Shown one piece after another: positions 6,351 to 15,249 of a stretch of 42,641 nt of DNA. The number at the start of each line of letters is the position of its first letter. Positions within the stretch are counted from its first letter, which is position 1. The stretch spans positions 1 to 42,641 of the forward strand of contig CACXCA010000059.1 of NCBI GenBank assembly GCA_902766045.1, in the 5' to 3' direction. The translations under genes and the position numbers were made by a program. The DNA is from an uncultured Bacteroidales bacterium (GTDB taxonomy: Bacteria; Bacteroidota; Bacteroidia; Bacteroidales; Paludibacteraceae). The notes below the pieces were generated by a model. The model was not told the DNA's origin, did no database searches, and saw only the letters and a program-made list of their open reading frames with translations.

Positions 6351-6381
6351 TTTGGTATTAATATAAATATTTTAATCTTTG
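6351..6381 (+). promoter_or_regulatory. promoter of the DUF2589 operon
   Basis: TTTG (6351-6354), exactly 19 nt, then AATCTTTG (6374-6381), one mismatch to TAnnTTTG. The predicted start lies near 6388, leaving an AT-rich leader of about 80 nt before the ATG at 6468. This is the only clear promoter seen upstream of the nine-gene cluster. Confidence 0.6.
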
Positions 6382-6467: not shown

Positions 6468-7337
6468 ATGGGAAATATTGGTTCAGGTGTAACAAGCAGT
6501 ACAGTATCTGCTTTGAACGGACTACCATTTGAAAACATTATTGGTGGTCCTCTTAATGCGTGTGTGTTAGCTCAAAAAGAAGCTGCATTAACAACAATTG
6601 ATTTTATTCAAAGTGTGGGGTTGACAGTAGATGAAACAGGTCGAACCGAGGCAATTTATGTACACTTCACGTTTGTTCAGAATGGAAGAAAGGTGAATAT
6701 TAGTGTTCCTTTGTTGACGATTGTGCCAATTCCATACATTGCAATCAACACAATTGACATTAATTTCAAAGCATCTATCAAGGGATCAGAAGCTACATCT
6801 GATTCTATTTCTGAGGAAGAAAACTATTCAAAGACGAAAAAAACCAACAAACGATTAGGTCTCATTCTTAATCGGAAAAAAACATCTATGACTTCAACAA
6901 TCTCAACTAAGAAAGATTCAAAATCAACAGCTGATTCTTCTTATAGTATTGAAGCAACTGTAGATGTAGCTGTACATGCTTCACAAGACTCAATGCCTGC
7001 TGGTATGGCTAAGATACTTGAAATGTTAGGTAGTGCTATTGATTTGTGTAGTCCAGAAGGTGAATTGTCCGTTAGTTCTAATACTGCTAAGAAAGACGAT
7101 GTAATAACAGTTACATACAAAGGCTCTGATGGTATTTATCATCCTGATGCCATTAAAATACCAGCTCCTATTACTGATATTAAGACAACAGCTGATGGTA
7201 TAGGAAAATATTTCACATTCCCAGATAATCTAGAAAGTCTTGAAATTACGTTAATAGAAGAAAAAATTAAGGAAACAAATCCTGATTGCTCCGCAAATGA
7301 AATCGGTTTGAAACAGGAGATTAAAAAAATTGCATAA
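6468..7337 (+). CDS. DUF2589-type protein, paralogue 1 with Ig-like C-terminal region
   Basis: A 289-residue protein without signal peptide. The DUF2589 core has three blocks. An amphipathic N-terminal segment (LPFENIIGGPLNACVLAQ, residues 19-36) comes first. A strand pair follows with NGRKVNISVPLLTIVPIPY (72-90). After a charged, Lys/Ser-rich linker (110-155) comes the block VDVAVHASQDSMPAGMAKIL (165-184). Residues 198-289 form an extra region with ITVTYKGSDGIYHPDAIKI that resembles the tails of paralogues 2 and 3. The DUF2589 family is recognised but has no known function. It is the first gene of the cluster, 13 bp before paralogue 2, which shares its layout almost position by position. A structural role in a hetero-oligomer is inference. 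Confidence 0.8.
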   Translation: MGNIGSGVTSSTVSALNGLPFENIIGGPLNACVLAQKEAALTTIDFIQSVGLTVDETGRTEAIYVHFTFVQNGRKVNISVPLLTIVPIPYIAINTIDINFKASIKGSEATSDSISEEENYSKTKKTNKRLGLILNRKKTSMTSTISTKKDSKSTADSSYSIEATVDVAVHASQDSMPAGMAKILEMLGSAIDLCSPEGELSVSSNTAKKDDVITVTYKGSDGIYHPDAIKIPAPITDIKTTADGIGKYFTFPDNLESLEITLIEEKIKETNPDCSANEIGLKQEIKKIA

Positions 7338-7350
7338 TCGCTAATTATCT

Positions 7351-8223
7351 ATGGCAAGTATAGACACGACAGCATCCACAGTCGCGACGAATGCGTTGCA
7401 ATCCATACCGTTTGGTTCTATCATTGGCGGACCTTTGTCGGCCTGTATAGAAGCACAGACGAATGCAGCGAAGACCACTTTAGATTATATCAAGGAAGTT
7501 GGTCTGACGTCGGATGAGGATGGCAATTCAAGGGCGGTCTATGTCAGCTTCGAATATCGTAAGAATGGACACAAAACGGTACTTAGCATACCTTTGCTGA
7601 CAATCGTTCCAATTCCATATTTTGCGATACGAGACATTGATATAGCATTTAAGGCAAGCATTTCGGCATCATCGTCGCTTTCCACAACGAAAAGCAACAG
7701 TCTCGAAGTGAGTGCCGGTATGAAGGCGAAAGCGGGCTTTAATGTTGGCATTGCTAAAGGAAGCATGGAAATGAGTGCCAGCGTTTCAAGCAAGAAGGAC
7801 TCAACGGCAACAAGAGATTCAAAGTATAGTGTGGAATATACAATGGACGTAGCTGTCAAGGCAGGTCAAGATGATATGCCAGCAGGAATGTCTAAAGTGT
7901 TGGAGATGCTAAGTGAATCCATTGACTCAATTGTTGCAACAGGCGAATTAACTGTTTCTTCTCAAAAAATCTCGTTAGCTGATGGAGGCGTTTATATTAC
8001 ATATAAAAATGTAGATGGATATTATGATCCATCATCGATTGAGATTTATAAGATAACAATGGAAACAGGCTCAACAGAAGAAAAACAGACATTGGTTAAT
8101 GAGGATCCTGAAACATGTAAATTGGTTCTTGACGAGACAGGTGTTGTATGTTTATTAAGAAAAGCAGGAAGTTACGCCGTTAAAGCCGGAGAGAGCTCTT
8201 ACTTAGTTACCGTTACCAATTAA
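7351..8223 (+). CDS. DUF2589-type protein, paralogue 2 with Ig-like C-terminal region
   Basis: A 290-residue cytoplasmic-type protein and the closest relative of paralogue 1. The motifs fall at the same residue numbers: IPFGSIIGGPLSACIEAQ (19-36), LSIPLLTIVPIPYFAI (78-93) and VAVKAGQDDMPAGMSKVLEM (167-186). The linker (104-150) is Ser/Ala-rich and weakly repetitive rather than Lys-rich, with an SSKKDST motif that recurs in paralogue 3. The C-terminal part (200-290) reads like a beta-sandwich: VYITYKNVDGYYDPSSIEI, and KAGSYAVKAGESSYLVTV at the end. The first half of the gene looks richer in G+C than the gene before it, which may reflect a separate origin. Function unknown. It lies 13 bp after paralogue 1 and 24 bp before paralogue 3. 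Confidence 0.82.
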   Translation: MASIDTTASTVATNALQSIPFGSIIGGPLSACIEAQTNAAKTTLDYIKEVGLTSDEDGNSRAVYVSFEYRKNGHKTVLSIPLLTIVPIPYFAIRDIDIAFKASISASSSLSTTKSNSLEVSAGMKAKAGFNVGIAKGSMEMSASVSSKKDSTATRDSKYSVEYTMDVAVKAGQDDMPAGMSKVLEMLSESIDSIVATGELTVSSQKISLADGGVYITYKNVDGYYDPSSIEIYKITMETGSTEEKQTLVNEDPETCKLVLDETGVVCLLRKAGSYAVKAGESSYLVTVTN

Positions 8224-8247
8224 TTAAACGTATAAACGTATATTAGT

Positions 8248-9558
8248 ATGCTACCAGAAGACACTAACATCAATCCTTCCGAACAGGATCCTAAAAATCC
8301 TCAAGGAAGCGATGTTCCAGAAGAAAATGGGGGAGATAACAGCGGGGGAGAAAAAAACTCGCCAGACAACCCAAAAAATGGAACAAATGCGGGAAATAGT
8401 GGCACACAAGCGGGAGAAACTGAAGGAGCAGATAATGGAGGTCAAGGCGTAAAGGATCCCAGCAAAAATGGAGATTCTGAAACTGACGAGAAATCTGGGA
8501 CAACCGGGAAAACATCAGAGCCATCTGTTAAGGATATTGCTAATGATGTGATTGACGTAACCGGGAAAGCAGCCGACACATTTAATAAAATAAATGCAAC
8601 GGTAACACTTGGAAAGGTTACGGCCGATGTAGCATCAGTAAACGAGGCAGTATCTTCATGGGAAAAGGTTTCTATTGATAAGATAATCGGCGAACCCCTT
8701 AAAGCAGCAGTCAGAGCTCAAGGTGATGCGGCGAAATCTGTTTTAGATTTTATCCGTAATGTAGGAGTGACAGATGTGAGCAACAATGGTTCTGAAACCA
8801 TGACAGTTGTCTCATTTAACTTCTTCAAAAACGGGAAGATCGCTAAACTGCAGATTCCTCTGATAACGCTTGTTCCTATTCCTACGTTGGGTATTGACGA
8901 AGTAACGTATGACTTTAAGATGACTATTTCATCCTCGTCAGATGTTACGATGACCAATACGAACTCTGTCTCCACCAAATTTGATACTAGCTGGCCTCAA
9001 TCATCTGGTGGTGGCCAAGCTGAGGGAAAAAAGGAGGAAGGAAAAGAAAAATCGGAAACCGCAAAGGCAGATGCAGATGCATCCAAAGTGAAAGATGCCA
9101 CAAAGAAGTCCGTTTCATTTTCTGCAGGCTTTTCATCAAAGAAGGATTCTACAGCTACACAAACATCCAAGTATAGTGTAGAAACTACCATGGACGTACA
9201 ATTGAAGGTTGGAAAAGATGATATTCCAGCAGGTGTATCTAAGATGCTGGAAATTCTGAATGGTTCAACCGAGGTTATTGATCCAAATGGAGAGTTAACA
9301 TTATCAGCGGATAGTCTGACACTATCCTCAGATGGATATGCTATCTTATCTGTAAGTTATATCGATGGAGATGGAAATTTTGACACCACCGCCATAACAT
9401 GTACAGATGTAGATGGGAAAAAGGAACAAGGGAAGAAAGTTGCAAGTACAGACAGCTTACAAATTATATTTACCGAATCAGGTATATATAAAGTAAGTGC
9501 AGGAAAGAAATGTCATATAGTACATGTCAGCCCTGCTGTTAAGGCAACAGATTCATAA
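8248..9558 (+). CDS. DUF2589-type protein, paralogue 3 with acidic Gly/Asn-rich N-terminal extension
   Basis: A 436-residue protein. Residues 1-95 are low-complexity and disordered-looking (Asn, Gly, Glu, Asp, Ser, Pro), followed by a predicted helix (95-140). The DUF2589 core follows: VSIDKIIGEPLKAAVRAQ (141-158), LQIPLITLVPIPTLGI (201-216) and VQLKVGKDDIPAGVSKMLEI (317-336). A second low-complexity Lys/Glu/Ala insert (250-287) interrupts the linker, before the SSKKDST motif shared with paralogue 2. The C-terminal 80 residues (LSVSYIDGDGNFDTTAITC, SGIYKVSAGKK) match the Ig-like tails of paralogues 1 and 2. There is no signal peptide. The long acidic arm suggests a spacer or a binding surface on an assembly, which is inference. 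Confidence 0.8.
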   Translation: MLPEDTNINPSEQDPKNPQGSDVPEENGGDNSGGEKNSPDNPKNGTNAGNSGTQAGETEGADNGGQGVKDPSKNGDSETDEKSGTTGKTSEPSVKDIANDVIDVTGKAADTFNKINATVTLGKVTADVASVNEAVSSWEKVSIDKIIGEPLKAAVRAQGDAAKSVLDFIRNVGVTDVSNNGSETMTVVSFNFFKNGKIAKLQIPLITLVPIPTLGIDEVTYDFKMTISSSSDVTMTNTNSVSTKFDTSWPQSSGGGQAEGKKEEGKEKSETAKADADASKVKDATKKSVSFSAGFSSKKDSTATQTSKYSVETTMDVQLKVGKDDIPAGVSKMLEILNGSTEVIDPNGELTLSADSLTLSSDGYAILSVSYIDGDGNFDTTAITCTDVDGKKEQGKKVASTDSLQIIFTESGIYKVSAGKKCHIVHVSPAVKATDS

Positions 9559-9568
9559 ATTTAATAAT

Positions 9569-9602
9569 CTGGAGGGAGATCACCAAAAGGGTCTTCCTCC
9601 AG
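9569..9602 (+). terminator. intercistronic hairpin between DUF2589 paralogues 3 and 4
   Basis: CTGGAGGGAGA (9569-9579) pairs with TCTTCCTCCAG (9592-9602) through eleven base pairs, one of them a G-T wobble, around a 12-nt loop. The flanks AATC and GATT can extend the stem past a bulge. What follows is A-rich rather than T-rich, so it is a weak terminator at best. An mRNA-processing or attenuation element that sets the ratio of upstream to downstream products is more likely. Confidence 0.5.
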
Positions 9603-9630
9603 GATTAAAATCAGTTAATAATAAAGAAAT

Positions 9631-10389
9631 ATGGAAATAAATGATACTCTTTTAAATGTTCTAACAGAAGCTATGTCTTCAACGGTGGATGCAGACTACT
9701 TTGCCTCCATAAAATATTTTGAAAGATTACAAGAAATTGGAATATCTTCAAGTGGGCAAGGAAATGAATTAGAAACGGTAGAATGCGTTGTAAGAGGTAA
9801 AGACGACAAAGAGTATGTCTTAAAGATACCTAAACTTATCTTAATGCCAATGCCACTTTTACATGTAAAAGAAGCGACATTTGACATAGAAGGCGAATAT
9901 GAAATCAAAGAAAATGAAGAAAGCAGAAGGGTTGCTATTGATGAACTTGCGAATGCTATTGCAGAAGAAGAAGTGAAAGCAAATCCTAAAACAGACGTAA
10001 GTGCATTAAGAGAGCAATTCAAGGGTGAATATGCTCAATTGCCGACCATTAGATTAAGGGAGATTGCACTTCAAAGAAATATATCTGCAGTAGCACAACG
10101 TAGGGTATTAGATTCGCTAAATAGAGTTCAACCTACTATTACATTAACTCGAGCAAACACGAGCTCAACGACAGCAGCAGTCATGACTCCCGCAGCTCCC
10201 GCTGGAGATGCATCTAGAGGTTCAGCTTCAACTGGGAAAACTGCTTCTTCAGAATCTTCTAAAACTCAAGGCTTGAAGATTAAAATGTCTGTTAAAATGG
10301 AGCAATCTGACATGCCAGCTGGACTGAGTAATTTAATTCAAACAGTAACTAATTGTATCGAGGTAAAAGAACCAGTAAAAGAGAACTAA
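9631..10389 (+). CDS. divergent DUF2589-like protein, paralogue 4
   Basis: A 252-residue protein recognised as a diverged member by two preserved blocks: VLKIPKLILMPMPLLHVKEATFDI (residues 63-86), matching the PLLTIVPIPY-type strand pair, and KIKMSVKMEQSDMPAGLSNLI (216-236), matching the DMPAG block. The N-terminal block typical of the other paralogues (IGxPLxACxxAQ) is missing. In its place is LTEAMSSTVDADYFASIKYFERLQEIG. The linker (95-212) contains a predicted helical section with TDVSALREQFKGEYAQLPTI and REIALQRNISAVAQRRVLDSL, then a Ser/Thr/Ala-rich stretch. There is no Ig-like tail. It lies after the intercistronic hairpin. Assignment to the family is by motif and context. Confidence 0.72.
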   Translation: MEINDTLLNVLTEAMSSTVDADYFASIKYFERLQEIGISSSGQGNELETVECVVRGKDDKEYVLKIPKLILMPMPLLHVKEATFDIEGEYEIKENEESRRVAIDELANAIAEEEVKANPKTDVSALREQFKGEYAQLPTIRLREIALQRNISAVAQRRVLDSLNRVQPTITLTRANTSSTTAAVMTPAAPAGDASRGSASTGKTASSESSKTQGLKIKMSVKMEQSDMPAGLSNLIQTVTNCIEVKEPVKEN

Positions 10390-10403
10390 TAAAAAATAAA
10401 ATT

Positions 10404-10628
10404 ATGATAACTAATAACGGTAAAACACCGGGAATGAACTGCCCACAATGTGGCCAATTTATCCCAACCACAATTGCAGAATTACTTACATCAACAGGTT
10501 TAACATGTCCTCATTGCAGACTAAGATTAACCATTAACCGAAATGAGTCAAAGAAGGCAATGGATATTTTGAAAAAAGTACAAAGTGCATCAGAAAGATT
10601 AGAAGCAGCAAGTAATTTTAGTAGATAA
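10404..10628 (+). CDS. small double-CxxC protein, probable zinc ribbon
   Basis: A 74-residue protein. I start it at ATG 10404 rather than at the in-frame ATG 10353, because the longer form overlaps paralogue 4 by 37 bp with residues that look unrelated (MYRGKRTSKREL). The protein has CPQC and CPHC knuckles 22 residues apart, separated by GQFIPTTIAELLTSTGLT. That layout fits a treble-clef or zinc-ribbon fold with one bound zinc. A C-terminal helix follows (SKKAMDILKKVQSASERLEAA). It could be a protein-binding adaptor or regulator for the DUF2589 proteins, but nothing in the sequence settles that. It starts 14 bp after paralogue 4 and ends 2 bp before paralogue 5, so translational coupling is likely. 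Confidence 0.8.
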   Translation: MITNNGKTPGMNCPQCGQFIPTTIAELLTSTGLTCPHCRLRLTINRNESKKAMDILKKVQSASERLEAASNFSR

Positions 10629-10630
10629 GT

Positions 10631-11695
10631 ATGATAACAACAGAAGAAATAAAAACAGCTAACTCAGCATTCGATTCGGTTCCTTTTGAAAATCTAATCG
10701 GAGCTCCACTCTGCGCATGTGTGAATGCACAGAAACAAGCTTCTGAGGCAACCATAGATTATATTCAGAAATTGGGATTCGATAAGAGTGAAAATTCAGA
10801 TGACTTATCCGTAGTAATGGTAAGTTTTGAATTTATCCATAACGGAAAAACTAGAACAATGAGATTACCTTTGCTTAGCATTGTCCCCGTTCCTTATTTA
10901 CAGATTGATACAGTGGATATTAAATTTACAGCAGAGGTGGCGGCAAACTCAGATGATACATTTAATGCCCGTATAAGTAATCAACGATATGAAGGAGATG
11001 GTCAGGGCAACAATTCATTGGATTACAAAGGTTTAATGGATCTAAATATTCGTGCTACGGGTACCAATATGCCAGCTGGGTTAGCCAAAATTCTTCAGGT
11101 TTTCCAGGATTATTGTTTCGAGATTGACGACATTACCGAAAATGAAGATGACAATATCGAAGATAAGGAAGACATTGAAGATAAAGAAGATATAAAAGTT
11201 GAAAGTGATACCGATTCAAAAACTGAGAATAATTCAGCTGGAGGAAAGTATTATCTTAGAATAATTAGATATTCTGTCACAAAGAGCAAATTAAATAATC
11301 TCATCAAAAAGATCTGGAAGAAAAGACCTGAATTAACGGAAGAATCAATACGCAAGGCTTTTGAAACCAAAGGCGTTCTGTGTACGAATTTAACGTTAAA
11401 AGAGGCAGAGGAATTAAATGATATGCTCGAAGATCAAACTGTAACAATAGAGATAAAAGAAATGTCCTCAGCATATTATATACAGATTACTAGTGAAGTC
11501 TCTAATAATGATATAAGCAGATTAATCGTTATGATAAAAGGCACAAGACCAGAGTTGAAGGAAGAAGATATTATTTCCATCATTCGCTCAAAAGGTGTAT
11601 TGTGCAGTTATATCTCATATGACGAGGCAGAATTCTTGAAAAACATCATAGAAGAGGCTGGAGGAAAAGCAAAAATAGGATTAGTTGAAAATTAA
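10631..11695 (+). CDS. DUF2589-type protein, paralogue 5 with two L7/L12-like C-terminal modules
   Basis: A 354-residue protein. The DUF2589 core is compact: VPFENLIGAPLCACVNAQ (17-34), RLPLLSIVPVPYLQI (78-92) and LNIRATGTNMPAGLAKILQV (138-157), with a short linker. An acidic repeat follows (about 168-198, units like DIEDKED). Two similar modules then occupy residues 206-277 and 281-350. Each has an opening strand, a helix with RPELxEExI, a GVLC turn, a helix with EAExLxxxxE, and a final strand. This resembles the C-terminal domain of ribosomal protein L7/L12, in particular DEAEFLKNIIEEAGGKAKI. The resemblance is my own reading and needs a profile or fold comparison. No signal peptide. It overlaps the annotated start of paralogue 6 by 11 bp. 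Confidence 0.78.
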   Translation: MITTEEIKTANSAFDSVPFENLIGAPLCACVNAQKQASEATIDYIQKLGFDKSENSDDLSVVMVSFEFIHNGKTRTMRLPLLSIVPVPYLQIDTVDIKFTAEVAANSDDTFNARISNQRYEGDGQGNNSLDYKGLMDLNIRATGTNMPAGLAKILQVFQDYCFEIDDITENEDDNIEDKEDIEDKEDIKVESDTDSKTENNSAGGKYYLRIIRYSVTKSKLNNLIKKIWKKRPELTEESIRKAFETKGVLCTNLTLKEAEELNDMLEDQTVTIEIKEMSSAYYIQITSEVSNNDISRLIVMIKGTRPELKEEDIISIIRSKGVLCSYISYDEAEFLKNIIEEAGGKAKIGLVEN

Positions 11696-12770
11696 TTCAG
11701 AATTGATGGCTTCTATTCAATCAGATTCACAAAAAGACATTTCACAACAATTGATGGATGGATTACGACCAATGTCATTGGGCAAATTGGTTTCCAATCC
11801 TCTTGTCGCATGTGTAAAAGCACAATATAAATCTATAGAAGCTGCATACGATGTTATATTAAACCAATCCTTTAAAAAGGTTCAAGACAACCCCAAAGAG
11901 AGGAAAGAGAGTATAGAACCGATTTTCATAACATTTTCATATCCGTATAAGGGCAGAGTTTATCAGTTAAAGGTCCCCTTATTTACATTGATTCCAATTT
12001 CTTATTTAGAGATTCAACAAGCCAGTTTTTCGTTTGCGGCGGAACTCAAGGTTGAATCATCTGAAGGCATAAAAGGTGTTTTATGTCGGAAGCGTAATGA
12101 ATCTATAAATAGAACAGCTGCGGGTCATTGTACAATTGGTTATAATATCAATATGGGACAATGTGATATGACTGCTGGATTAGCGGCTATTCTACAATTA
12201 TGTGAAGAAAATGTTGTGGTTGATTGTGTTGATCTACCAATTAAACAGGTAGGTTCATCGGGAGGAAAGCTTTCTACGGAAGGTATCTTACATTCCATAA
12301 ATACGCCACGATATAGTAGTTACACATCATATCGTTCTTCTTATTCATCAAGGCAGTCAAGTTCATCGGGAGGAGAACTTTCTTTATCCGGTATTTTACG
12401 TTCGATAGATACACCACGATACGGAAGTTATACATCTTACGGTTCCTCTTATTCATCGAGACGAGTGGGGTCCTCAGGTGGTAATCTTTCATTAACGGGT
12501 ATCCTGCGCTCTATAGATAGAGCACGATATGGTAGCTACACTTCTTACACTTCATCATATTCTTCGAAATATGGGGGTTCTTCAAACGGAACACTATCAT
12601 TAAATGGCATCCTGCACTCCATAAACAGAAGACGATGGACACCAATAGGAAGGGTTTACATAAAGAGAATAACGTCTAGCGGCAAACCTATATACGTTTC
12701 TGCTTTATTACAATCAATTAACAAACGTAGAATTCACAACGGGAAACCCTCAAAAAGGAGAAAAAAATGA
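11685..12770 (+). CDS. DUF2589-type protein, paralogue 6 with 36-residue Ser/Tyr/Arg repeats
   Basis: A 361-residue protein. The core has SLGKLVSNPLVACVKAQY (31-48), QLKVPLFTLIPISYLEI (94-110) and INMGQCDMTAGLAAILQL (155-172), where the usual Pro of DMPAG is Thr. From about residue 190 the protein is a tandem repeat of 36 residues with units of the type SSGGxLSxxGILxSIxxxRY, followed by SYTSYxSSYSS. Three units are full, a fourth is cut short, and a fifth remnant (VSALLQSINKRRI) precedes a very basic end (KPSKRRKK). Met8 (ATG 11706) is a possible start: it would remove the overlap with paralogue 5 and give MASIQS, like the MASIDT of paralogue 2. The stop overlaps the next gene in ATGA. The tail could be a polymerising, modified or cleaved segment; its function is unknown. 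Confidence 0.78.
   Translation: MKINSELMASIQSDSQKDISQQLMDGLRPMSLGKLVSNPLVACVKAQYKSIEAAYDVILNQSFKKVQDNPKERKESIEPIFITFSYPYKGRVYQLKVPLFTLIPISYLEIQQASFSFAAELKVESSEGIKGVLCRKRNESINRTAAGHCTIGYNINMGQCDMTAGLAAILQLCEENVVVDCVDLPIKQVGSSGGKLSTEGILHSINTPRYSSYTSYRSSYSSRQSSSSGGELSLSGILRSIDTPRYGSYTSYGSSYSSRRVGSSGGNLSLTGILRSIDRARYGSYTSYTSSYSSKYGGSSNGTLSLNGILHSINRRRWTPIGRVYIKRITSSGKPIYVSALLQSINKRRIHNGKPSKRRKK
12252..12638 (+). repeat. 108-bp coding tandem repeat, 36-residue units
   Basis: Equivalent positions of the unit (start of the SSGG codons) fall at about 12255, 12363, 12471 and 12579, a spacing of exactly 108 bp each time. Units one to three are complete, and the fourth diverges after GILHSIN. The protein consensus joins a GILxSI helix-like motif to a Ser/Tyr/Arg-rich stretch. 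Confidence 0.9.
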
Positions 12771-13633
12771 AAACAGGTAAATCATGTGTACAGGCATTGC
12801 ATATCAACTGGACGAAACCGTTCCGTGCGTGCAATAATAATGCAACTTACTTTGTGGATGATTTTGAGCTGTTGACGACCATTCTTTCCTCTTTATTATG
12901 GAAACGGTACAATGGGCCCATAAAACTTTATACTGACAGTATCGGTTATGATTATTATGAAAAGTTGGGATTGTTGAATCTGTGGGATTCCGTTGATGTT
13001 GATACGTTAAATAGAATACCGGAATCTATTGATCCGGAAATCTTTTGGGCGGCGGCAAAACTCTTTGCAATAAGGAATGAAAAAGGGCCCGTAGTGATGA
13101 TGGATACGGATCTTCTTGTATGGAAAACATTAGATGAATTAAAAAAAGAGAAAATTGTGGCATTCCATCGTGAATCATTAAATATTGACTGCTATATACC
13201 CTATGAATTTTTAAAGAAAAGGGAAGGGTATCAGATAGACTCTCAATTTGATTGGAGTGTTTCACCATGTAATACCGCACTGACATATTTTAATGATGAC
13301 GCATTTAAAAATTTCTATACAGAGACAGCCATTGATTTTATGACAGACAATAAGGAACGACCCATGGAGATGGTTTCTCAGATGGTTTTTGCAGAACAAC
13401 GATTATTCTCCATGTGTGCAGAAAAATTAGGGCTTCGGCTGCACACCTTTCTCCCATTTGAATATAATGGCGAGTGTGATGATTTTACACATTTATGGGG
13501 CGCCAAGGGAATCGCACGTACAGACGAATCATTTCATAAAGAATTATGCACATCGTTAGTCAATGCCATCCATAGGGAATTTGAAGAATATATAATACCA
13601 GAACAGGTAGAACAACTTATAAATGTCTCTTAG
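12767..13633 (+). CDS. GT-A-like glycosyltransferase candidate with DxD motif
   Basis: A 288-residue cytoplasmic protein. The layout resembles GT-A nucleotide-sugar transferases of the GT8 or capsular type: an N-terminal region with LLTTILSSLLWKRYNGPIKLYTD, then PVVMMDTDLLVWKTLDEL with Asp113-Thr-Asp115 as the probable metal and nucleotide-sugar site. Conserved-looking blocks follow: FNDDAFKNFYTETAIDFM, and HLWGAKG near residue 243. There are no membrane segments. Its start overlaps the stop of paralogue 6 by 4 bp (ATGA), so the two are probably translationally coupled. That suggests, as inference, that it modifies a cluster protein, perhaps the Ser/Thr/Tyr-rich repeat of paralogue 6. I am confident of the DxD motif and less so of the family. 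Confidence 0.65.
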   Translation: MKTGKSCVQALHINWTKPFRACNNNATYFVDDFELLTTILSSLLWKRYNGPIKLYTDSIGYDYYEKLGLLNLWDSVDVDTLNRIPESIDPEIFWAAAKLFAIRNEKGPVVMMDTDLLVWKTLDELKKEKIVAFHRESLNIDCYIPYEFLKKREGYQIDSQFDWSVSPCNTALTYFNDDAFKNFYTETAIDFMTDNKERPMEMVSQMVFAEQRLFSMCAEKLGLRLHTFLPFEYNGECDDFTHLWGAKGIARTDESFHKELCTSLVNAIHREFEEYIIPEQVEQLINVS

Positions 13634-13704
13634 ATAGAATAAATTATTTTATCAAGATCATTTTTTAACAAACAACTATTATTAACAATTAAAACTTATT
13701 ACAA

Positions 13705-15192
13705 ATGGCAAAAAAGGTAACAGGAAAAGCGGCTCTTGAAGCAGTTAGGCTTTCAGCTATTAAAGAATTATCTCTCGAGAAACTTCAAAAAGTTAGTCCT
13801 GAGGACATCAATGCAATTCTAAAAAGGGATAAAGTAAAATGGAAAATTAATGTAAAAAATTATGATCCAAAGGTTTTCGATCTACATCCCAACATGGCGG
13901 CATTGAAAGATCCAGTTCTTTCAAAAATACCTCTTGAAATTTTCAGGAGAACTACTTACAACTACTTTTATATAGATGGTAATGGTAAATTAGCAAAAAA
14001 ATCATCTTCAACTAGACCTAAACGGTTTGATTGGAGAGAAATAAATAAAGTACTGACCAGTGTAAAGGATCAAGGTTCTTGTGGATCATGTGTTGCATTT
14101 GCCACTGCTGCTGCGTTAGAAGCACACTATAGAATTCAAAATTACAATCACAGTCAAAATACAGTCGATTTATCAGAAGCAAGTTTGTATTTTACAGCAC
14201 AGCGTCAGTGTAATATAAATGATAGTAGATATGGTTGGTATTGTTCAGCTGCCATGGAAGCTGCTAAAAATGAAGGGATTTGTATGGAATACAATTATCC
14301 ATATATCCCTGTCAATCAAGATGCTCACATGTCAGAAGGAAGTTGTAGAATCCTGAAAATTGAGGACTATAAGGTAACATCAAACGTAAATCAAATGAAA
14401 CGCTGGCTTATCGAAAATGGTCCGCTTGTATCTCGTTACGATTATTACACTGATTTTTCAACATTTTGGCATTATTGTCAAAACGAGACCGACGTATATA
14501 CTCATACTAGTATTGGTTCATGTACAGGAGGCCATGCAATCTGTATAGTAGGATATGATGATGATAAAAAAGCATGGATTTGTAGAAATAGTTGGGGCGG
14601 TAGTACAGCACATCCAAGTGGCTATTTCTACATGGGTTATGGAGAATGTGGTATTGATGCTAACATGTATCTTCCAGTGGGTGTTTATGATAAAATCACC
14701 TATGATGCAATATCATATAATCCAGATAATCTAAGAATCGTAAAAGAAACTAACGACTGGTTACTAACAGATGGTCGATCAAGAATGTTAATTTTTGACA
14801 CAGAGGAAGATGCTAAGAACGGTCTAAAAGTTGCCAAAAGACACACAAGACAGTGTTTTATAGGTCGCAGTAATAAGAGAAGCAACAGAAAGGATTTCAT
14901 TCTTAGTTATTGGGATGGGAATAGTGGACTTCGATCAGAACCGCTTAGCAAAGAAGATAAAATTTCCTATAATCCTCGAAATGTATCAGTTCGTTATGAT
15001 GCAGCAGCAGGATTTTGGCGAGTAGTTGAAAAACTATCTAATAATCAAGAACATTACATGTTTATTGCAGATAACATGGCAGATGCGTTGGCTATGTTAA
15101 GTGTAACAGAAAGATACTCAAAGACATGTTATATTGGTAGAGGTAATAAAAGAAGTAACAGGAAAGACTTTATCATGCATTATTATGAGTAA
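13705..15192 (+). CDS. papain-family (C1A) cysteine peptidase with duplicated C-terminal domain
   Basis: A 495-residue protein. Residues 1-105 form a helical pro-region-like segment without the ERFNIN-type inhibitor signature. The peptidase domain (about 106-325) has every catalytic element of papain: oxyanion Gln123 and nucleophile Cys129 in QGSCGSC, His277 in GGHA and Asn295 in CRNSWGG. The C-terminus holds two copies of a module of about 75 residues (333-404 and 418-495), each starting SYNPxN and ending CxIGRxNKRSNRKDFI plus aromatic residues. I do not recognise a named family for the module. There is no signal peptide, so the enzyme appears cytoplasmic, unusual for C1A peptidases. It is the last gene of the cluster and is followed by a terminator. 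Processing of the DUF2589 proteins is a plausible role but is not shown. Confidence 0.87.
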   Translation: MAKKVTGKAALEAVRLSAIKELSLEKLQKVSPEDINAILKRDKVKWKINVKNYDPKVFDLHPNMAALKDPVLSKIPLEIFRRTTYNYFYIDGNGKLAKKSSSTRPKRFDWREINKVLTSVKDQGSCGSCVAFATAAALEAHYRIQNYNHSQNTVDLSEASLYFTAQRQCNINDSRYGWYCSAAMEAAKNEGICMEYNYPYIPVNQDAHMSEGSCRILKIEDYKVTSNVNQMKRWLIENGPLVSRYDYYTDFSTFWHYCQNETDVYTHTSIGSCTGGHAICIVGYDDDKKAWICRNSWGGSTAHPSGYFYMGYGECGIDANMYLPVGVYDKITYDAISYNPDNLRIVKETNDWLLTDGRSRMLIFDTEEDAKNGLKVAKRHTRQCFIGRSNKRSNRKDFILSYWDGNSGLRSEPLSKEDKISYNPRNVSVRYDAAAGFWRVVEKLSNNQEHYMFIADNMADALAMLSVTERYSKTCYIGRGNKRSNRKDFIMHYYE

Positions 15193-15217: not shown

Positions 15218-15249
15218 GAGGAAGTTCTGATAAAGGACTTCCTCTTTTT
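15218..15249 (+). terminator. rho-independent terminator of the DUF2589 cluster
   Basis: GAGGAAGT (15218-15225), an 11-nt loop, ACTTCCTC (15237-15244), then TTTTT. It lies 26 bp after the peptidase stop codon. The minus-strand gene that ends at 15304 does not gain a T-run from it, so it acts in the plus direction. Confidence 0.8.

Follow-up and report, generated by a model that had tools for sequence, protein, structure and literature searches.

The window analyzed here is a 42,641-nt stretch of DNA from an uncultured Bacteroidales bacterium with relatives in animal guts, and its positions 6468 to 15192 hold a nine-gene operon encoding six paralogues of the orphan family DUF2589 (D1 to D6), a small double-CxxC protein (ZN), a DUF6734 protein and a papain-type peptidase. 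The original prediction, made from the sequence, had counted six DUF2589 paralogues among nine genes, and all six do score above the curated cutoff of Pfam PF11655 (28.7 to 94.3 bits, against a cutoff of 23 bits); a search of the whole genome for DUF2589 found six places, all of them D1 to D6. The nine genes are co-directional, and with 11706 taken as the start of D6 their coordinates put -4 to +72 bp between neighbors; a TTG start for D6 at 11685 is open as well. No match over a cutoff was obtained from NCBIfam. The features of the region are as follows (aa, amino acids).

about 6351..6381, + strand: possible promoter, TTTG-N18-TAATCTTTG, near match to the Bacteroidota type by eye
6468..7337, + strand: D1, DUF2589 paralogue, 289 aa (PF11655, E 1.2e-26)
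7351..8223, + strand: D2, DUF2589 paralogue, 290 aa, with a C-terminal immunoglobulin (Ig)-like domain (PF11655, E 1.4e-26; structure model)
8248..9558, + strand: D3, DUF2589 paralogue, 436 aa, with a Gly/Asn/Asp/Ser-rich N terminus (PF11655, E 9e-20)
9631..10389, + strand: D4, divergent DUF2589 paralogue, 252 aa (PF11655, E 2e-8)
10404..10628, + strand: ZN, double-CxxC zinc-ribbon-like protein, 74 aa (home-made profile; translation)
10631..11695, + strand: D5, DUF2589 paralogue, 354 aa, with a two-copy C-terminal repeat (PF11655, E 1.3e-20)
11706..12770, + strand: D6, divergent DUF2589 paralogue with a repeated GGxLSxxGILxSIDxxR tail (PF11655, E 1.9e-6)
12767..13633, + strand: DUF6734 protein, glycosyltransferase-like, DTD motif (PF20508, E 5.9e-14)
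13705..15192, + strand: papain-type (C1A) peptidase with two C-terminal repeats (PF00112, Peptidase_C1, E 2.7e-34)
15218..15244, + strand: intrinsic terminator at the operon end, an 11-pair stem followed by TTTTT

Two shared motifs, of PLLTIVPIPY type and DMPAG, are visible in the alignment as predicted, with DMTAG replacing the latter in D6, which with D4 is the most diverged of the paralogues. Their tails differ, again in line with the prediction. Residues 201 to 290 of D2 contain blocks with a predicted local distance difference test (pLDDT) score of 92 to 97 and gave Ig matches in a fold search of the PDB; by eye, D3 has a long Gly/Asn/Asp-rich N terminus, and D5 ends in an acidic linker and a two-copy repeat. 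A likeness of the D5 tail to L7/L12, seen by eye after a Ribosomal_L12 match in locus L148, was not supported by a profile comparison with the L148 protein. By eye, GGxLSxxGILxSIDxxRY is repeated about four times in the D6 tail, the copies being separated by Ser/Tyr-rich spacers; the versions in the related genomes G003 and G014 differ, and the tail is absent from G004. These repeats could be a docking peptide array.

The double-CxxC protein named in the prediction has its two CxxC pairs at 10404 to 10628; its home-made profile matched 37 sequences, the window copy and redundant loci included, and its zinc-ribbon matches in Pfam were weak and all under the cutoff. The peptidase was confirmed by its Pfam match and by the Cys, His and Asn motifs QGSCGSC, GGHAI and NSWGG, and hydropathy gave no evident signal peptide. 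Each of its two C-terminal repeats, seen by eye outside the Pfam match, closes with an NKRSNRKDFI-type block. The glycosyltransferase-like protein matches DUF6734, and its DxD-like motif makes it a putative GT-A enzyme. A hydropathy above 1.6 occurs among the nine proteins in D1 alone (1.74, at the PLLTIVPIPY strand), with D2 reaching 1.59.

The prediction of one strong promoter and one terminator held for the terminator. A sigma-70 scan of the region found 40 sites against 39.8 in shuffles, no excess, and so gave no strong promoter; the candidate upstream of D1 resembles the Bacteroidota consensus by eye (TTTG, 18 bases, TAATCTTTG). Terminator-like sites were likewise no more frequent in the region than in shuffles (5 against 5.0).

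Conservation of the operon and of a smaller DUF2589 module

DUF2589 is present in 8 of the 101 genomes searched around the window and, with all or most of the operon, in 5 of the 16 genomes of the genus, the window's own genome counted in the former. G003 and G014 have all nine genes in unchanged order. G004 and G008 retain most of them: from G004 the DUF6734 gene and the greater part of the D6 tail are missing, and in G008 the papain gene was not called within the cluster and the presence of ZN is ambiguous. Variants exist in other Bacteroidales, such as G029 of another genus, which carries a further gene (X2) and a DUF6734 gene together with, at the opposite end, a GH108 lysozyme; the conservation in other genomes on which the prediction depended is therefore real. 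Wider samples were patchy (19/296 in the phylum, then 9/398, 2/299 and 3/194, with the starting genome within each count), and named relatives include Prevotella multiformis, Porphyromonas sp., Segatella copri, Akkermansia muciniphila and Okeania. A tenth gene, absent from the window, lies 3' of the papain gene in G003 and G014 (L060:13641-14708 and L063:16498-17556); its product of 352 to 355 aa appears propeller-like by eye, and the L060 copy had no Pfam match at E 0.01.

The window operon is an enlarged Bacteroidales form, without a separate X2, of a small module comprising DUF2589, X2, a second DUF2589 and ZN. Home-made profiles show this gene order (D-X2-D'-ZN) recurring in Bacteroidota, cyanobacteria and Akkermansia. 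An acidobacterial genome yielded calls for D, X2 and ZN, with a second DUF2589 match located between them, and Proteobacteria and phages have partial forms of the module. A second form, D-X2-X3, in which X3 was found 14 times by a home-made profile, occurs in Bacteroidota, in records titled Alistipes, Thermoflexaceae, Clostridia and Ruminococcus (L186 to L189), and in two further phylum samples, where it is represented by L229, L232 and L233. X2 may be a divergent DUF2589 protein, a relation taken as likely on a weak profile match (hhalign E 0.002, probability 14); profile comparison found no relation of X3 to DUF2589.

As to the common fold expected of the six cores, profiles place all six in one family, and models cover D2 (pLDDT 74.7) and one core-only relative (pLDDT 64.7). 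In both models a long helix at the N terminus precedes four strands and a C-terminal helix, and the hairpin between strands 3 and 4 is floppy (pLDDT <50). This hairpin is flexible and Ser/Thr-rich, and its hydrophobic alternation exceeds that of shuffles in 47 of 68 aligned sequences, many of which are near-identical and not independent; D1-type proteins among the rows listed do not show it. A sequence-profile search against the PDB returned nothing meaningful. Among viral matches a single one reached the E 0.001 level, to an unnamed protein at 31% identity. Homology to tail tubes was considered and rejected: lambda gpV matched D2 at E 8.5e-3 alongside antibody and other Ig matches, which is explained by the Ig-like tail, and it was not among the 50 matches listed for the core-only model. 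Likeness of the core to SecB was not significant (E 0.32).

Enzyme swapping beside the module

Enzymes were surveyed around 79 non-redundant DUF2589 loci, which remained of 87 entered after a filter at 80% identity. Left out beforehand were L060 to L064 (the same places as L156, L141, L143, L142 and L153); L073; L140; and L228 with L237 (the same places as L184 and L185). Of the 56 viral loci, 7 were kept. From the phylum sample, regions were fetched from 12 of the 18 other positive genomes, G115, G156, G191, G229, G249 and G389 being excluded. Gene calls were our own picks of open reading frames (ORFs) and include spurious ones, mainly in GC-rich loci. On these 79 loci, 16 probe proteins gave 48 matches, every one on the module strand, 47 of them within 3 kb and one at 3.1 kb (near flank 422 kb, farther flank 565 kb). 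A probed enzyme lies nearby in 39 loci and in the other 40 none does. Peptidoglycan-hydrolase types of eight Pfam families are found in 23 loci (PF11860 muramidase in 9, M15 types in 5, GH24, GH25 and GH19 in 2 each, and GH108, CHAP and amidase in 1 each), and 16 loci have DUF6734, papain or subtilase without such a type. Pfam confirmed at least one member each of Muramidase, GH108, M15_3, GH25, GH19, Phage_lysozyme, Amidase_3 and CHAP; the M15 types of L076, L090 and L232 were assigned by eye, that of L232 having no Pfam match. GH19, named chitinase in Pfam, is also used by phage endolysins. A patatin and a Tle1-like lipase (L227) lie in loci that also hold a wall hydrolase.

The probes were drawn from the same loci, so that their choice is partly circular, and a Pfam scan of neighbors against controls and the rarity of PF11860 therefore weigh more. 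Among 149 neighbor ORFs the scan found PG_binding_1 (8), Muramidase (7), DUF6734 (7), Peptidase_C1 (4), and Phage_lysozyme, GH25, M15_3 and S8 (2 each), and these eight families are absent from the 25 families listed, of 182 matched, for 144 control ORFs. Both sets were chosen by rule (156 ORFs each, 90 to 1000 aa, with 7 neighbors and 12 controls then removed as longer than 600 aa) and replaced an earlier, discarded set of 137 hand-picked neighbor ORFs. The PF11860 muramidase occurs in 1 of 61 relatives, yet 8 of the 79 modules have it within 3 kb and a ninth has it 3.1 kb away. Both the module and the swapping of its enzymes are well supported. The hydrolase family varies while the DUF2589, X2 and ZN genes stay, a constancy that is in part by construction, since the loci were chosen by DUF2589. 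LytTR-type regulators make up 8 of the 149 neighbor ORFs, hinting at common regulation.

DUF6734 is tied to DUF2589 directly. In 7 of 14 DUF6734 loci, some of them closely related, it lies in frame with DUF2589 as a fusion, which Pfam verified in one locus (L145), and within the genus 4 of 5 DUF2589-positive genomes have it, against 0 of 11 DUF2589-negative ones. Papain is linked to DUF2589 less tightly, and it is not an obligate part, given that G007, a genome of the same genus that is 88% complete, has a 67% identical papain gene and no DUF2589 match. At other loci the enzyme slot holds a muramidase, GH24, GH25, GH108, GH19, M15, CHAP, amidase, subtilase or patatin. A slot filled by such varied families, together with the DUF6734 fusion, looks like one for interchangeable cargo; the "processing enzymes" of the original prediction fit less well.

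A hydrophobic N terminus is absent by hydropathy from 45 of 46 enzymes, the single exception being a DUF6734 protein. Wall hydrolases have no substrate in the cytoplasm, and some release or carrying agent is therefore needed. Beside the muramidases of L160 and L162, and at the same position in Akkermansia loci without a muramidase, lie proteins whose N termini are by eye of lipoprotein, transmembrane (TM) or Sec type, and which are candidate immunity proteins on that by-eye basis; the same-position proteins of L136, L166 and L169 to L171 have by eye no such N terminus.

A putative carrier and competing explanations

From the linkage to enzymes we infer, as a tentative reading that is possible but short of probable, that the DUF2589 paralogues act as a soluble cytoplasmic carrier or release device with the enzymes as swappable cargo. 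Several paralogues and ZN would be produced together in the cytoplasm and form a soluble hetero-oligomer, which would take up cargo through direct fusion of DUF2589 to an enzyme, as seen in sequence for DUF6734, or through docking. The oligomer would then move its cargo beyond the cytoplasm, where it would most probably serve as a weapon that is delivered to other cells or released in their direction. In the window genome this cargo would consist of the papain-type peptidase and the DUF6734 protein; elsewhere it would mostly be a phage-type peptidoglycan hydrolase. The cytoplasmic hetero-oligomer of the prediction would thus survive in part: conservation and membership in one family make a multi-paralogue assembly plausible, and a shell or filament found no support except the number of paralogues. 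A bolder version, which we consider unlikely, is a new class of sheathless enzyme-delivery machine, built from homologous beta proteins and a zinc ribbon, that loads swappable lytic enzymes in the cytoplasm and exports them across the envelope, so that other cells are killed or breached, with phages holding a stripped-down version.

Several observations weigh against a carrier. Neither the D2 nor the core-only model matched a PDB fold at E<=0.001, and among the parts common to the loci no export channel, ATPase or membrane protein was conspicuous. Half of the DUF6734-positive genomes (5 of 10, among 61) have no DUF2589 match, the papain gene of G007 occurs equally without one, and the 40 loci without a probed enzyme count here too, some of them being truncated and some possibly holding unprobed families. 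Immunity would rest on a few proteins judged by eye. Finally, the DUF2589 genes of Archaeoglobus fulgidus that PMC3949148 gives as induced by lactate have no obvious fit to an antibacterial weapon.

The main rival is programmed self-lysis, in which DUF2589 would be a holin or pore former that lets a cytoplasmic phage-type endolysin reach the cell's own wall, so that the producer lyses. Hydrolases near 23 modules, none with a hydrophobic N terminus, the LytTR neighbors, the alternating hairpin with its non-independent sequences and the presence of DUF2589 on phage contigs, one of them examined with PHROGs, all suit this idea. We nevertheless rate it as unlikely, since the window operon has no peptidoglycan hydrolase, papain, DUF6734 and subtilase are ill-suited to endolysis, and the alternation is missing from the D1-type proteins among the rows listed. 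TM-like windows were seen by hydropathy in 65 of 288 proteins of the family as well as in D1, but the D1 window overlaps the conserved PLLTIVPIPY strand. Phage holin-endolysin cassettes likewise combine phage-type wall hydrolases lacking an evident signal peptide with a small conserved set of partners; the DUF2589 partners appear to be multi-strand beta paralogues rather than small TM holins, and a wall hydrolase lies near 23 of the 79 loci but is absent from the window operon. Bacterial gasdermins and other beta pore formers might offer an analogy in their flexible amphipathic hairpin between long strands and neighboring protease, but no pore-former fold was matched at E<=0.001 by the core-only model (pLDDT 64.7, hairpin <50).

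Alternatively, DUF2589 might form a complex for storage, stress or scaffolding that has no role outside the cytoplasm, the enzymes being chance neighbors on mobile elements. Its patchy distribution, the loci without a probed enzyme, the lack of export parts in the loci and the lactate induction described in PMC3949148 would agree with this, but the enzyme linkage is close, same-stranded and repeated, and DUF2589 and DUF6734 are fused directly, which makes such a complex quite improbable. We regard it as very unlikely that the module is a helper of an extracellular contractile injection system (eCIS) encoded elsewhere in the genome, serving lysis release or effector supply. Of 10 DUF2589-positive Bacteroidota genomes, 6 have a sheath match (5 above the cutoff), which would speak for it, as would an eCIS-type locus in the window's own genome with sheath, T4-gp19-type tube, spike, PAAR and gp25, and the description in PMC8213781 of eCIS particles as set free after cell lysis. 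The sheath count covers DUF2589-positive genomes only, with no matched control, though, and 4 of the 10 genomes have no sheath match with a profile that is weak for these sheaths; own-genome eCIS proteins match nothing in the 79 DUF2589 loci, and DUF2589 profiles were silent in eight pieces around sheath matches (six genomes, three pieces read as eCIS). An anti-phage defense module with abortive effectors would explain the patchiness (5 of 16 genomes in the genus) and the variable enzymes, but it is highly improbable: none of the nine window proteins had a meaningful PADLOC match, the sole match, of the peptidase to Cas8b (E 0.015), being attributed to chance, and phage contigs carry DUF2589 themselves.

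The carrier proposal would turn DUF2589, an orphan domain spread over several bacterial phyla and phage contigs, into a testable carrier or release hypothesis, by way of eight wall-hydrolase families, other enzymes and the DUF6734 fusion. If true, gut bacteria, among them Segatella copri and Akkermansia, would possess a simple device of a new type for delivering enzymes or for lysis.

Known systems and neighboring observations

The Pfam description of PF11655, the family to which all six window paralogues belong, assigns no function. A full-text search for DUF2589, PF11655, DUF6734 and AF0414, whose coverage excludes most subscription papers and preprints, found PMC3949148 as the single relevant paper; in its passage on these genes, the short DUF2589-related genes AF0414 to AF0417 of A. 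fulgidus are up-regulated with lactate, and a multi-paralogue, enzyme-bearing operon is not described. Effector islands of eCIS, which PMC8213781 places in 1.9% of bacteria, and of type VI secretion systems (T6SS) share with the DUF2589 loci a set of toxin-like enzymes that can be exchanged and that frequently come last in their operon; on the DUF2589 side these include wall hydrolases and the Tle1-like lipase of L227. Own-genome eCIS proteins detected no sheath, tube, spike or baseplate gene in the 79 loci, and a Pfam scan of the nine window genes found none. The T6SS sheath VipB/TssC was matched in 0 of the 10 DUF2589-positive Bacteroidota genomes, with a profile that may miss diverged sheaths.

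The own-genome eCIS locus (L259, G000:C17:84000-103000, and L264) contains no DUF2589. Its 3' side encodes at least three proteins with a common, DUF4157-like motif similar to GMPDDLKEGIESLSGFSMDDVRVHY. Among viral loci, contig L097 has DUF2589 and a small partner 3' of phage helicase, RecE and RecT family genes, and L106 and L123 resemble it by eye; neither the phage DUF2589 of L097 nor D2 gave a match in PHROGs. Locus L136 (MT839761.1, 1-4044), a human-feces record titled "bacteriophage," consists over its 4 kb only of D-X2-D'-ZN, a small protein and a muramidase and is by eye closely like Segatella copri L161, and it may be host DNA within a virus preparation. On a plasmid of Vibrio sp. 16 (L138), DUF2589 genes adjoin a peptidase-domain ABC transporter and an HlyD adaptor, with an annotated TcdA/TcdB-type glycosyltransferase gene nearby on the opposite strand. 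A GEHQ-motif protein of 58 to 88 aa lies by eye among or directly after the DUF2589 genes of L225, L226 and L227, and proteins resembling it by eye occur in L137 and L138.

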